Origin: a virus
DNA length: 64,000 bases
Virus record (IMG/VR): IMGVR_UViG_3300028030_000005
Coordinates: 33,646-97,645 of that record
Direction: 5' to 3' (one strand)
The notes beneath the pieces were generated by a model. The model ran no database searches, had not been told where the DNA came from, and worked only from the letters and a program-made list of their open reading frames with translations. Positions 846 to 45,589 of this stretch are shown here, piece by piece (positions within the stretch are counted from its first letter, which is position 1; every line of letters begins with the position of its first letter). A program made the translations under genes and the position numbers.

Positions 846-2389
846 AATAAATTTAATTTTGTTGTCATTCTATATGGTAACAGAGTATTGTTCATCACTT
901 CCTGCAAACACACTTCATTCAACGAAGCATTGTTTTTTATCCACGCCTCAATGAATGGATTATTGGTTGCTTTAGAATAGGCTGTTTTTAGCGGCTTAAA
1001 CTCTACATTACGAACTTGTATTTTTGAATCAGCATCAGCATCGAGTAAAATTTCAACAAACGTTTTAACAGCATCTATGTGCTGTTTTAAATTACTTCCG
1101 TAACCAATACTCGGAACTGCCGTAGATGGGTCTGTTTGAATTGCGATATCAGCTCCCCACAATATTACCCTAACTTCATACCAATTTTCTAACTTTGCAA
1201 ATTTCATTTGGTCAATTGCTATGTTAGATAGCCCTCCTTGAATAGATGCAGGATTCACGTCGTTATTCAATACATCTTTTGACCACATTTTAACGGTGAG
1301 CCTTGAATTATTGTCTAACGCCCTTACTTGAAATTGCAGTTGGTAGCTTAGTAAACTGTCTGTCGTTGTCCAGAACTTGTTAGCTGTCGCACTATCAATA
1401 GAAATTCCTTTGGCAGGACCTCCGGCTTGTTGTTTTATATTCAAAATAGCATCCATTTCGTTTGGTTGCCAATCTACGTCACAAAAACTCTCATCTATTG
1501 GAAAGTTTGCTCCATCTGCTCTATCTCTGTATAGTTGAAACAGCTTTACGTAGTCACGGTTATTTTCAATTCCTTTATATAAAGGACTGTGATGATTCAA
1601 CCACCATCCTGTATTGTGTCCTTTATTGATTGCTATTAAAAATTCATCGTAATCTTGTTTGTTGATGATTCGAAACAATTCGTCAGTGAAACGACGCGTT
1701 CCTCTATAATTATATTGACGAAATCTGTTTTTTGATAGAGTTTGTAATCTCGTTAAGTCAACATCTCCTGTATTTATGTCCCTAACTTGTAGGTATTTTC
1801 GAAGTAATGTAGAATCGTTGTTTGTTTTTTCGAAATATCTCGCATATATAACAAACATTGCGTAGTAACACGCGATACTACGCCAAAAATCAATGTAGTC
1901 TCTATCCTCGTCATTTTGGTTTTGATTGGTGTTACGAGTCATTGCTTTCATTACAATTCCCGGTTGATAAAGCTTGTTTGTTACGTTAAGACACCAATCT
2001 AATATATCGGGCTGACAACAAGTGAATACAGATGAAAATACAGATGAGTTGAAACTATCACCACACTCTCTTTCTATCGATTGATATTCAATTGTTGTAT
2101 AATCCCAACGAATTGTTCCTGATGCAGAACCTTCTCTGGTGTATCGAAATTCGATATCAAAATCAAATTGTGGTTGAATAGGTATGTCTTGTAACGATTG
2201 CTGAGTTAGTGACTGAAACTCTGTCCAGTTTATTCCATCAATTGTATAGCGAAATTCGCGACGCAACGTATGTGTAGCATCTTCTCCTATCACAGATTCA
2301 GTATATCCTGTGATAGATTGAATACCACTCGTTGGATGGTCGAGTTTGAACAGTCTTATATCTCCTACGTTAACAAATACGTTATTCAT
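842..2389 (-). CDS. Putative baseplate/tail-associated structural protein
   Basis: About 515 residues from the ATG at 2389, two bases after the stop of the small gene at 2391. A TTG five codons further upstream (2404) is in frame but would overlap that gene. The N-terminal third is beta-rich with aromatic 'FRYTIDG'-type strands. The centre is helical and charged and contains a Cys-Cys pair (FTCCQPD). The C-terminal part again looks beta-rich. I recognise no family. It sits between the glycosyltransferase/adhesin pair and another unknown structural gene, which points to a baseplate or fibre component (inference). Confidence 0.8.
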   Translation of the reverse strand: MNNVFVNVGDIRLFKLDHPTSGIQSITGYTESVIGEDATHTLRREFRYTIDGINWTEFQSLTQQSLQDIPIQPQFDFDIEFRYTREGSASGTIRWDYTTIEYQSIERECGDSFNSSVFSSVFTCCQPDILDWCLNVTNKLYQPGIVMKAMTRNTNQNQNDEDRDYIDFWRSIACYYAMFVIYARYFEKTNNDSTLLRKYLQVRDINTGDVDLTRLQTLSKNRFRQYNYRGTRRFTDELFRIINKQDYDEFLIAINKGHNTGWWLNHHSPLYKGIENNRDYVKLFQLYRDRADGANFPIDESFCDVDWQPNEMDAILNIKQQAGGPAKGISIDSATANKFWTTTDSLLSYQLQFQVRALDNNSRLTVKMWSKDVLNNDVNPASIQGGLSNIAIDQMKFAKLENWYEVRVILWGADIAIQTDPSTAVPSIGYGSNLKQHIDAVKTFVEILLDADADSKIQVRNVEFKPLKTAYSKATNNPFIEAWIKNNASLNEVCLQEVMNNTLLPYRMTTKLNLL

Positions 2390-38141: not shown

Positions 38142-38182
38142 TGTGATTGATTAATGATGTAAATATCTGTCTTTTTTTTCAA

Positions 38183-38220
38183 ATAAAAAAGCGTGCTACA
38201 TAAATGTAAACACGCTTTTG
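38183..38220 (-). terminator. Terminator of the tRNA/tmRNA operon
   Basis: Stem AAAAGCGTG / CACGCTTTT around a 15-base loop, with TTTTTT following on the minus strand and a shorter T run on the plus strand. About 40 bases after tRNA-fMet and before the gene at 38141. Confidence 0.85.
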
Positions 38221-38261
38221 ACCGAGACCTATAACAATGCTGTGCTGATATTGCACTGTTG

Positions 38262-38335
38262 TAGCAGGGGCCGGACTCGAACCGACGACCTTGAGATTAT
38301 GAAACTCACGAGCTAACCATCTGCTCTACCCTGCG
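38262..38335 (-). tRNA. tRNA-fMet (CAT), initiator type
   Basis: 74 nt to the discriminator A; CCA is not encoded (CAA follows). Acceptor CGCAGGG/CCCTGCT pairs except C1xU72. D stem GAGC/GCTC gives A11-U24, loop with GG. Anticodon loop TTCATAA with CAT. Variable AGGTC, T arm GTCGG-TTCGAGT-CCGGC. The unpaired 1-72 position and A11-U24 are initiator hallmarks, and D, variable and T arms closely follow bacterial initiator tRNA. However, the three G-C pairs that normally end the initiator anticodon stem are missing: 29-31/39-41 are A-U, G-C, UxU. Six bases from the tmRNA 3' end, so co-processed. Confidence 0.9.
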
Positions 38336-38340
38336 ATGTG

Positions 38341-38630
38341 TGGAGATGCTGGGATTCGAACCCAGGTCCCGTACAATTTGCAAATCAAAGTTTTATACAG
38401 CTTAATAGGGCCGACTGACGTCGTGATTTCCACCAGTTAGTTTTGTGAAAACTAACAAAACGTATTGTTCTCTACGCAGCTATCAACTCTGTTGATGTGT
38501 TCATTTTATGAACAATAAATCTGCTTTTGTTACTATTATTGCCAGTTATTTTAATTCACCGTACTTTTTAACGAGAGCTACCTCGGCTGAACTTTGAATT
38601 ACTCGTTGCAGGTCAATGCCGTACATCCCC
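38341..38630 (-). ncRNA. ssrA: tmRNA (ssrA) with abnormal tag-coding region
   Basis: 290 nt. Ends pair as a tRNA-like acceptor: GGGGATG (38630-38624) with CATCTCC (38348-38342), all seven pairs with G3-U70, the alanine identity pair. TACGGCATTGAC follows the 5' strand as in bacterial tmRNA, and a T arm CTGGG-TTCGAAT-CCCAG precedes the 3' strand. Helix P2 is visible: TCAAAGTT (38597-38590) with AACTTTGA (38392-38385). Two further hairpins, TGTTCAT/ATGAACA and GTTAGTTTT/AAAACTAAC, fit the pseudoknot region. The likely resume site GGT-GAA (38560) reads only G-E-L-K before TAA. No short frame ends in the usual LAA degron. CCA is not encoded. Confidence 0.9.
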
Positions 38631-38898
38631 ATATGTTAATGAACTATTATTTGGAAATTTGGTGGTGTACTCGCGAATGACTACACCACCTTATTTCCTA
38701 TCAAACACAAAACTATATCAATCCGGTATCTGCTTTATGTTTGATAACCATTGCCGTACTGTTTCTGTTACTTTACACTTCACCACAACGCTCCGTGTAA
38801 TAACGTTTCTGTTCCAGTTGCTACCAGCTAAACGTGTCTATTGTTGTGGCTCACCACGCGTCGCTCAAGTAGCTAAGAATTAACGGTTGGTTTTCTCG
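38631..38898 (-). other. Structured intergenic stretch between tRNA-Ile and tmRNA
   Basis: No convincing gene in 268 bases. It holds a strong hairpin GGTGGTGTA/TACACCACC (38661-38690) just upstream of the tmRNA, a nine-base inverted repeat TATCAAACA/TGTTTGATA (38699-38747), and a small GTGG-TGAG-CCAC hairpin. A 39-40 codon open frame on the minus strand ends ETVRQWLSNIKQIPD at 38718, but its first usable start is a GTG at 38786. Could be a leader or spacer for RNA processing, a separate small RNA, or a gene remnant. Confidence 0.5.
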
Positions 38899-38971
38899 TG
38901 TTGTGAGTAGGACTCGAACCTACGACCTCGTCCATATCAGGGACGCGCTCTACCAACTAAGCTATCACAAC
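38899..38971 (-). tRNA. tRNA-Ile (GAT)
   Basis: 73 nt to the discriminator A. Acceptor GTTGTGA/TCACAAC, D stem GCTT/GAGC with TTGGT loop, anticodon stem CGTCC/GGACG perfect, loop CTGATAT with GAT, variable AGGTC, T arm GTAGG-TTCGAGT-CCTAC. All stems pair and the invariant bases are present, so it should be functional. CCA not encoded. It reads ATC/ATT codons, frequent in this AT-rich genome. Confidence 0.96.
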
Positions 38972-41656: not shown

Positions 41657-42460
41657 TTATAGGTTTATTCTCTTTGGTGGTTGTTTCTTGTTCAGACCAC
41701 TATTGTCGTACCAAGCATATTTCGATATTAGCTTGTTTTTAATCAAGTGTTTGACTACCTTACGACTGTTGATATTTGATTTATATACTACTTCTCGTGG
41801 AACCCATCGTTTTGTATCAACTCCTCGTTTCTGAGCGCTGTAAAACGCTTTGTCTGGTGGAACGTCAACAAATACCAATTTAATGTCGTATCCACGTTTT
41901 TTCAGGTCACGAATCAGCTTTTCTGCTTTTTGTTGTTTAGATAGTGTAGTATCTATTGTGATGTGATATTTGTTTTCAATAGCATCGTGTATTAATACTT
42001 TACTGAGATACGACGATTCACCGTGTACTTTATGTGCTGCTGACTTGTAGTCTTTCTTTATATATTTACTGTATTCGGGTAATTGTTGTTTGATATCATC
42101 GCTATTGATGTACACTGAATTCTCGTCGATTTTACCATAAAACTTTTGATATACGTACGTTTTACCACTTCCTGTTCCTCCAGCAAGAATCACTGCCGTA
42201 GGTCGTTTTTGGTCAGCAACTTTGTTTTTAAAGAAATTGTCGACTATCTTTTTGTGTAGCTTTACTCTTGAAGATGTCCATTCGTCGTTTATCTTGTACA
42301 AATGTTCAGTAGTAGTTTCTCTATACTTCTTTAATTCCGGGTCAACGCTGCCTCCATAAGCAAGTCCTACTCGTTGCAAACGACGATTCAGCCAATTATC
42401 TTTGTAATAACCTTTAATCAGATTTTTTACGTCGCTTTCTATTTTGTTTGTGGATTTCAT
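41657..42460 (-). CDS. Zeta-toxin-type P-loop kinase
   Basis: 267 residues. Walker A AGGTGSGKT (93-101), then YINSDDIKQQLPEY (the base/substrate Asp region of zeta kinases), YHITIDTTLSKQQKAEKLI, VFVDVPPDKAFYSAQKR, and a basic C-terminus. This is the zeta/PezT-like or polynucleotide kinase-like fold: it phosphorylates a small molecule or nucleic acid end. No epsilon-type antitoxin is adjacent; the overlapping 58-residue gene upstream is basic, unlike epsilon. In phages such domains may modify cell-wall precursors or tRNA. Confidence 0.78.
   Translation of the reverse strand: MKSTNKIESDVKNLIKGYYKDNWLNRRLQRVGLAYGGSVDPELKKYRETTTEHLYKINDEWTSSRVKLHKKIVDNFFKNKVADQKRPTAVILAGGTGSGKTYVYQKFYGKIDENSVYINSDDIKQQLPEYSKYIKKDYKSAAHKVHGESSYLSKVLIHDAIENKYHITIDTTLSKQQKAEKLIRDLKKRGYDIKLVFVDVPPDKAFYSAQKRGVDTKRWVPREVVYKSNINSRKVVKHLIKNKLISKYAWYDNSGLNKKQPPKRINL

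Positions 42461-43365: not shown

Positions 43366-45589
<2,224 letters not shown>

Follow-up and report, generated by a model that had tools for sequence, protein, structure and literature searches.

A one-piece phage tmRNA with a 23-residue tag and a family of extended-tag tmRNAs in Bacteroidota phages

The window, which is the whole 64,000-nucleotide stretch of viral DNA analyzed here, encodes a one-piece tmRNA that probably works with host SmpB to add Ala and a 23-residue tag to stalled chains, marks the product through an Ala-Ala end, and is a member of a phage tmRNA family with extended tags. The RNA, its tag frame, the family, and selection at the peptide level within the family are demonstrated by computation. 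During trans-translation, tmRNA is alanylated by virtue of its G3-U70 pair and enters the ribosome guided by SmpB, after which translation resumes on the tag frame and the tagged chain is released. The tags are usually about 10 residues long and are treated as simple degrons.

Results

A complete one-piece tmRNA between two tRNA genes

ARAGORN reports a complete one-piece tmRNA at 38340–38630, and the covariance search suggested in an earlier, sequence-only reading of this DNA yields a match to Rfam RF00023 at 38338–38630 with 80.2 bits (E = 1.7e-29, gathering score 47). All window features given here lie on the (−) strand. Pairing of the acceptor stem and T arm sets the ends of the gene at 38341–38630, or 290 nt without CCA, which is not encoded in the gene sequence. 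The 5′ acceptor strand GGGGATG (38624–38630) pairs with CATCTCC (38342–38348) at seven of seven positions, including G3-U70, and the T arm CTGGG-TTCGAAT-CCCAG (38349–38365) forms five of five T-stem pairs. Both the fold and the Rfam alignment contain a P2 helix between TCAAAGTT (38590–38597) and AACTTTGA (38385–38392). The tmRNA ends described in the sequence-only reading are thus borne out, and TACGGCATTGAC is present as well.

Within the body of the RNA, a hairpin, CGAG-GTAGCT-CTCG (38572–38585), is seen in the sequence and the fold in the place of PK1. A P5-like hairpin, GTTAGTTTT-CAC-AAAACTAAC (38436–38456), lies 3′ of the stop codon. It is followed by TGGTGGA (38429–38435), an element common to the phage tmRNA family described below, and by a further family element, CCCTATTAAGCTGTATAAA (38392–38410), directly 5′ of the P2 3′ strand. 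tmRNAs typically contain four pseudoknots around the tag, with the number differing between tmRNAs; in the window tmRNA, PK2–PK4 are not evident in the fold or the Rfam alignment, and hairpins are seen around the tag. The gene is not permuted, as ARAGORN and Rfam give the one-piece order with no 3′ half ahead of the 5′ half. Nor is the RNA of the type found in mycobacteriophage DS6A, a tRNA-like-only RNA (PMC4131195). Both are phage-encoded tmRNA relatives, but the DS6A RNA is without a tag part, whereas ARAGORN and Rfam place a full tag part and tag frame in the window RNA.

Two tRNA genes identified by ARAGORN flank the tmRNA. A tRNA-Met (CAT; 38261–38335, also found by Rfam), which has a C1-U72 mismatch, lies 5 bases 3′ of the tmRNA end and is probably part of the same transcript. 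Upstream lies a tRNA-Ile (GAT; 38898–38971, likewise found by Rfam). No RNA family reaches its gathering score in the ~265 bases between it and the tmRNA (38631–38897), which contain no clear gene. A possible terminator can be read from the sequence at 38187–38219, where AAAAGCGTG, a 15-base loop, and CACGCTTTT are followed by a T run; it is absent from the list of our terminator scanner, which covered loops of 3–8 only.

The tag frame is long and ends in Ala-Ala

The tag frame comprises 23 codons and TAG (38472–38543, GNNSNKSRFIVHKMNTSTELIAA) according to ARAGORN and the resume context. Its first codon, GGC (38543–38541), directly follows TAACT (38548–38544) in the resume site AAATAACT|GGC, and the frame closes at TAG 38474–38472. 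Bacteroidota host tmRNAs resume at TAA[ACT]T|GGC-GAA-AAT; the comparison with host tags advised earlier therefore points to GGC 38543. Upstream stands GGTGAA (38555–38560), an element retained in related phage tmRNAs, where it lies 5–6 bases ahead of TAA[AC]T|GG[AC] and outside the frame under selection. Because a host-like resume signal precedes GGC 38543 and GGTGAA is a conserved upstream element, the tag is long rather than cut short, and the match of TAACT|GGC to host tmRNAs indicates that the 23 codons from 38543 to TAG would be translated.

The frames named in the sequence-only reading, namely GGT-GAA-TTA-AAA-TAA at 38560 and the 23 codons from GGC 38543 with two hairpins inside, do exist. 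Its expectation of an unusual phage tag holds for the second frame, with its ELIAA end, and fails for a cut-short GELK tag. The end of the window tag, ELIAA-TAG, keeps the hydrophobic-Ala-Ala pattern, and a frame that is both open and ends in [LIVMF]AA arises in only 0.005% of base-shuffled tags; this end is not due to chance. There is accordingly no support for ribosome rescue without marking of the products, and the normal tag of 8–10 codons ending in LAA, the contrary outcome that had been named, was not found either, as the tag has 23 codons and an IAA end. Part of the frame is folded (38476–38524; −12.4 kcal/mol, z = −2.0 for the tag frame), with GCAG/CTGC closing two hairpins at 38498–38514 and 38482–38496 that might slow or block translation.

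Host tmRNAs in Bacteroidota carry short tags

As a control, 148 Bacteroidota genomes drawn evenly provided 70 tmRNA stretches, to which four from an earlier GENNYALAA pattern set were added. ARAGORN read 66 tags of 9–10 residues in these stretches. Three of its host calls looked wrong, one of which is DNTSFALAA by inspection (L437) and two of which were left unread, and a stretch that it missed (L388) contains ANDYAYAMAA. Since the sampled hosts have tags of 9–10 residues, long tags are a phage feature in this sample. One genome (G150) with an intact copy also has a second match, L406, an apparently decayed tmRNA in which the tag GENNYALAA is kept and the acceptor and T arm are changed.

The window tmRNA shares with the Bacteroidota RF00023 tmRNAs, which have GENNYALAA-type tags, the G3-U70 alanine acceptor, T arm, P2, TAA[ACT]T|GGC, and an Ala-Ala end. 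It differs from them in its tag (23 residues versus 9–10), its size (290 nt versus mostly ~350–400), its own signatures (GGTGAA, TGGTGGA, and AAGCTGTATAAA), and PK2–PK4, which are not evident.

A family of extended-tag tmRNAs in phages

We define the family by TCAGC, GGTGAA, and the resume site on the 5′ side, by a hairpin, TGGTGGA, and AAGCTGTATAAA on the 3′ side, and by a tag clearly longer than 9–10 residues. A first scan of viral contigs searched for the upstream element followed by the resume site (TAAAN{3,7}GGTGAAN{5,6}TAAMTGGM), and its set was filtered for tags of ≥20 residues ending in AA (or MVA). Together with the window and locus L007, a tmRNA from a related phage, it comprises at least 46 loci with at least 35 different tags of 23–49 residues. 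One first-scan match with a T arm, L306, has an ordinary 9-residue tag, GKKTYALAA. The second scan used post-tag elements only (TGGTGGAN{20,50}AAGCTGTATAAA) and accepted a reading where the tag ended in [AGV][AV]. Of its 71 loci, 53 are readable, with tags of 18–45 residues (one of 18); 5 others are truncated where their contig ends, and the remaining 13 are, by inspection, chance matches in other sequence.

Overall, the family tags span 18–49 residues, nearly all end in AA, and most have an internal core resembling QIEANMNKVFSLL, as in the typical tags GKNNSRVVALGANAQIEANMNKVFSLLREEVAVAA, GNTNENAQVRANMTVVHNILNGEVSASREVELAVAA, and GNVEDQIQANMDTVHAILGSEVEVAA. All 35 RNAs with assignable ends, the window and L007 included, retain G3-U70, and the acceptor stems around it vary (GGGGGTG/CACCTCC, GGGCCTG/CAGGTCC, GGGCTCG/CGAGTCC, and others). 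This widespread group of phage tmRNAs with tags of 18–49 residues has apparently been undescribed so far.

A T-arm scan revealed further long-tag classes. These viral tmRNAs fall into L131, L142, L157, L175, and L464; L153 and L196; L132 and L218; L198 and L216; L146; and L217, with internal motifs such as TFEDAMAW, LDGLVIDWHLA, and DYTVESLFAEL. Because these classes carry other internal motifs, tag extension seems to have arisen more than once.

The tag core is under peptide-level selection

Among 35 different tag DNAs, internal stops are absent from frame 0 and interrupt each other frame in every one; base shuffling leads to an expectation of ~2.5 open tags of 35. Since the length filter partly ensures the openness of frame 0, pN/pS in the core is the stronger test. 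Across 29 different DNAs of the 13-codon core, the tag frame has a pN/pS of 0.43, versus 0.83 and 1.44 for the shifted frames, and 44% of the core changes fall at third positions. Pooled pairs of whole tags give a pN/pS of 0.67. The family core is therefore under selection at the level of the peptide.

Several pairs from the T-arm-scan classes behave likewise, namely SLDGLVIDWHLAEYDVPSEPIGDYQPTYAYA (pS 0.44, pN 0.12), the FEDAM types, and the WSL types; the pattern is absent in the L198/L216 pair. Tests of the cores for amphipathic helices indicate a mild tendency that is mostly not significant for single cores. AlphaFold models the tag of L143 as one long helix (mean pLDDT 74.9, pTM 0.37), which is weak evidence for so short a peptide.

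The window tmRNA is a family member at the RNA level

A model of the 5′ part built without the window and L007 matches the window with 39.9 bits (E = 1.3e-5), compared to at most 21.8 bits for host tmRNAs; this test is circular in part, since the window contributed to the first-scan pattern. The corresponding model of the 3′ part, which is non-circular, matches with 32.2 bits (E = 2.1e-4). At the RNA level, the window tmRNA is a member of the family.

The interior of its tag has no detectable family core, scoring 1.0 bit with the core HMM, a value reached by 990 of 3000 shuffles. As no core like QIEANMNKVFSLL was found in it, we left the window out of the ANM-core subgroup. The core is also missing in L316 (49 residues) and L500 (GNDSSKVVSLEQEYKVAA, 18 residues). 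The window tag and 10 others share the motif [IV]VH[NK] (shuffle frequency 0.0017), which we did not count as proof, since it was chosen post hoc and the HMM disagrees.

No close relative of the window tmRNA was found. Searches through the neighboring 125-aa and 556-aa genes gave none, and a DNA search of phage records with the window tmRNA gave weak partial matches only, mostly in the T arm. A portal search returned five relatives, with a tmRNA match in one record only, a 95-kb virus record (L006) whose portal is 66–68% identical to that of the window and whose tmRNA lies at L007:1501–1853. Its aligned resume codon, TTTAAAT|GGA, opens a frame of 37 codons, GNTDMTAGETAQVEANMNVVHNLVNNSNEIAEYKLAA, which replaces the tag AEYKLAA called by ARAGORN. 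The folding of this tag region is unremarkable (z = −0.9). The 12-mer GATATTTACATC is identical in the window (38156–38167) and at ~2314–2325 (+) of L007, shortly ahead of the next gene, and is possibly a promoter element.

Carrier phages

The family is carried by crAss-like and other Bacteroidota phages, and the terminase of L277, for instance, is nearest to those of crAss-like phages. Cultured carriers are Flavobacterium phage FpV21 (tag GNTNNSVVSLEDNAQVEANMNMAFSLIREDVAVAA), Cellulophaga phages phi38:1 and Calle_1 (tag GNNTNAVNAQIEANMEAVNAILNLEVAVGV), and Cellulophaga phage phi14:2 of the Crassvirales (tag GNDTDNTQLKANMTVVHNILNGSDALIGSSVQKLAMVA). These tmRNAs share the RNA signatures and an extended tag with the window tmRNA, but their tags have 30–38 residues and an ANM core, whereas the window tag has 23 and no detectable core. 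In the public records, nothing is annotated at the tmRNA of FpV21 (L446), that of phi38:1 (L447) is covered by a CDS predicted for the opposite strand, and withdrawn predicted proteins stand in place of that of phi14:2 (L449). The Calle tmRNA is annotated, and it has been counted in print with its tag undiscussed (PMC8776804). Gut phage cr128_1 has the TGGTGGA hairpin region in common with the family and, by eye, a short tag, GNTYRAAA.

The virus record containing the window is 97,645 bases long. Among annotated phages, its portal is nearest to those of Chryseobacterium phage MA9V-3 (47%) and Bacteroides phage DAC19 (42%), followed by SPO1-like phages. On the basis of these matches, the window phage most likely belongs to the SPO1-like phages and infects Bacteroidota. 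The window portal has no match in any of 35 family records, many of which are fragments, and the RNA family thus seems to cross phage groups. Besides the tmRNA, the window encodes a GroEL-like chaperonin (43596–45194; PHROG chaperonin groEL, E = 1.1e-119; Pfam Cpn60_TCP1), so that the phage has two proteostasis genes. A gene with a Zeta-toxin-like kinase domain (41657–42460; PF06414, E = 1.4e-35) lies two genes upstream of the 556-aa gene, which precedes the tRNA/tmRNA cluster.

Permuted tmRNAs with moderately long tags (12–17 residues) also occur in Bacteroidota phages, namely MA9V-3 and gut crAss-like phages, unlike the window and family genes, which are one-piece. Their tags (L370 of MA9V-3, and L371 and L451–L454 of gut crAss-like phages) include GNVIDINKYVAKLEVAA and GNNFVTDYTQLAVA. 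In MA9V-3 (L511, 27220–27663), a 281-residue AAA_2 (ClpX-like) protein is found ~4 kb from the tmRNA and has been named ClpX (PMC13120357).

Discussion

In the mechanism that we favor, G3-U70 would allow the window tmRNA to be charged with alanine, and the RNA would bind host SmpB and enter stalled host ribosomes. Translation would then switch to GGC at 38543, and Ala plus GNNSNKSRFIVHKMNTSTELIAA would be added to the stalled chain up to TAG 38474–38472, the ribosome having to unwind the two small hairpins within the frame. The Ala-Ala end (IAA) would mark the product for host proteases of the ClpXP type. Searches of the window phage record gave no match to SmpB, ClpX-core, or ClpP, which we count as neutral; host factors would accordingly be used. 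Family tags contain extra sequence inserted between the tag start and the AA end, and for most of the family this insert is a conserved peptide under selection. This segment could provide a second contact, with an adaptor or another protease, or a better degradation handle during infection, and recruitment of a second factor is our leading guess. More broadly, a selected tag segment in unrelated Bacteroidota phages may recruit a host adaptor, another protease, or a phage protein and so redirect host rescue and protein disposal, with the window carrying a divergent version; we regard this as a tentative idea, possible but on the doubtful side.

The window frame could also be an ordinary degron with filler, in which only the AA end matters and a core has decayed or was never present. 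The undetectable core in the window tag fits this explanation, as do the coreless tags of L316 and L500, and base pairing within the frame could itself be what is selected. Elsewhere in the family the middle evidently matters, given the selected core in most members, and long tags persist in different phage groups, in contrast to the 9–10 residues of host tags. Overall, we give this explanation a substantial chance, somewhat short of even, and for the window itself, without a core, a role of the AA end only remains a strong rival.

Two further explanations would deprive the RNA of its marking function. It could be inactive or inhibitory, either because it has decayed or because it acts as a decoy and titrates SmpB in the manner of the DS6A RNA; at 290 nt it is smaller than host tmRNAs, and a phage RNA of such a kind has been described (PMC4131195). 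This is very unlikely, because the acceptor, T arm, P2, resume signal, open AA-ended tag, and family signatures are all complete, and compact relatives (~320 nt) have tags under selection. Resumption at GGT-GAA (38560) would instead yield GELK and rescue ribosomes without marking products, and GGT-GAA does look like the host tag start GGC-GAA. That GGTGAA is a conserved element at a fixed 5–6 bases before the family resume signal, that host-like resume context precedes GGC 38543, and that the selected frame in the family is the one set by the downstream GG[AC] codon together make resumption there highly improbable. A working tmRNA with a 23-residue tag thus remains our preferred reading.

Mycobacteriophage Bxz1 may also have a long tmRNA tag. 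The Mesoplasma florum ssrA tag is long and is degraded by Lon (PMC9382460). Like the window tag, it is natural and longer than usual, and it shows that tag length can accompany another protease, but it is bacterial, ends in NYAFA, and has no sequence in common with or known link to the window tag. A 2014 survey listed few phage tmRNAs (PMC4131195). The available part of a 2025 database paper gives 10 as the most frequent tag length and remarks on 2-residue tags; that part contains no comment on long phage tags, an absence that is no proof of novelty (PMC11915505).

The family described here brings tags of 18–49 residues, mostly with a selected internal segment, into cultured and sequenced phages, in which annotation of the tmRNA gene is partly missing or predicted protein genes overlap it. 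Two questions become directly testable with this family, namely why phages carry a tmRNA and whether the role of tags goes beyond marking proteins for ClpXP. The family would also supply natural long degrons for Bacteroidota.
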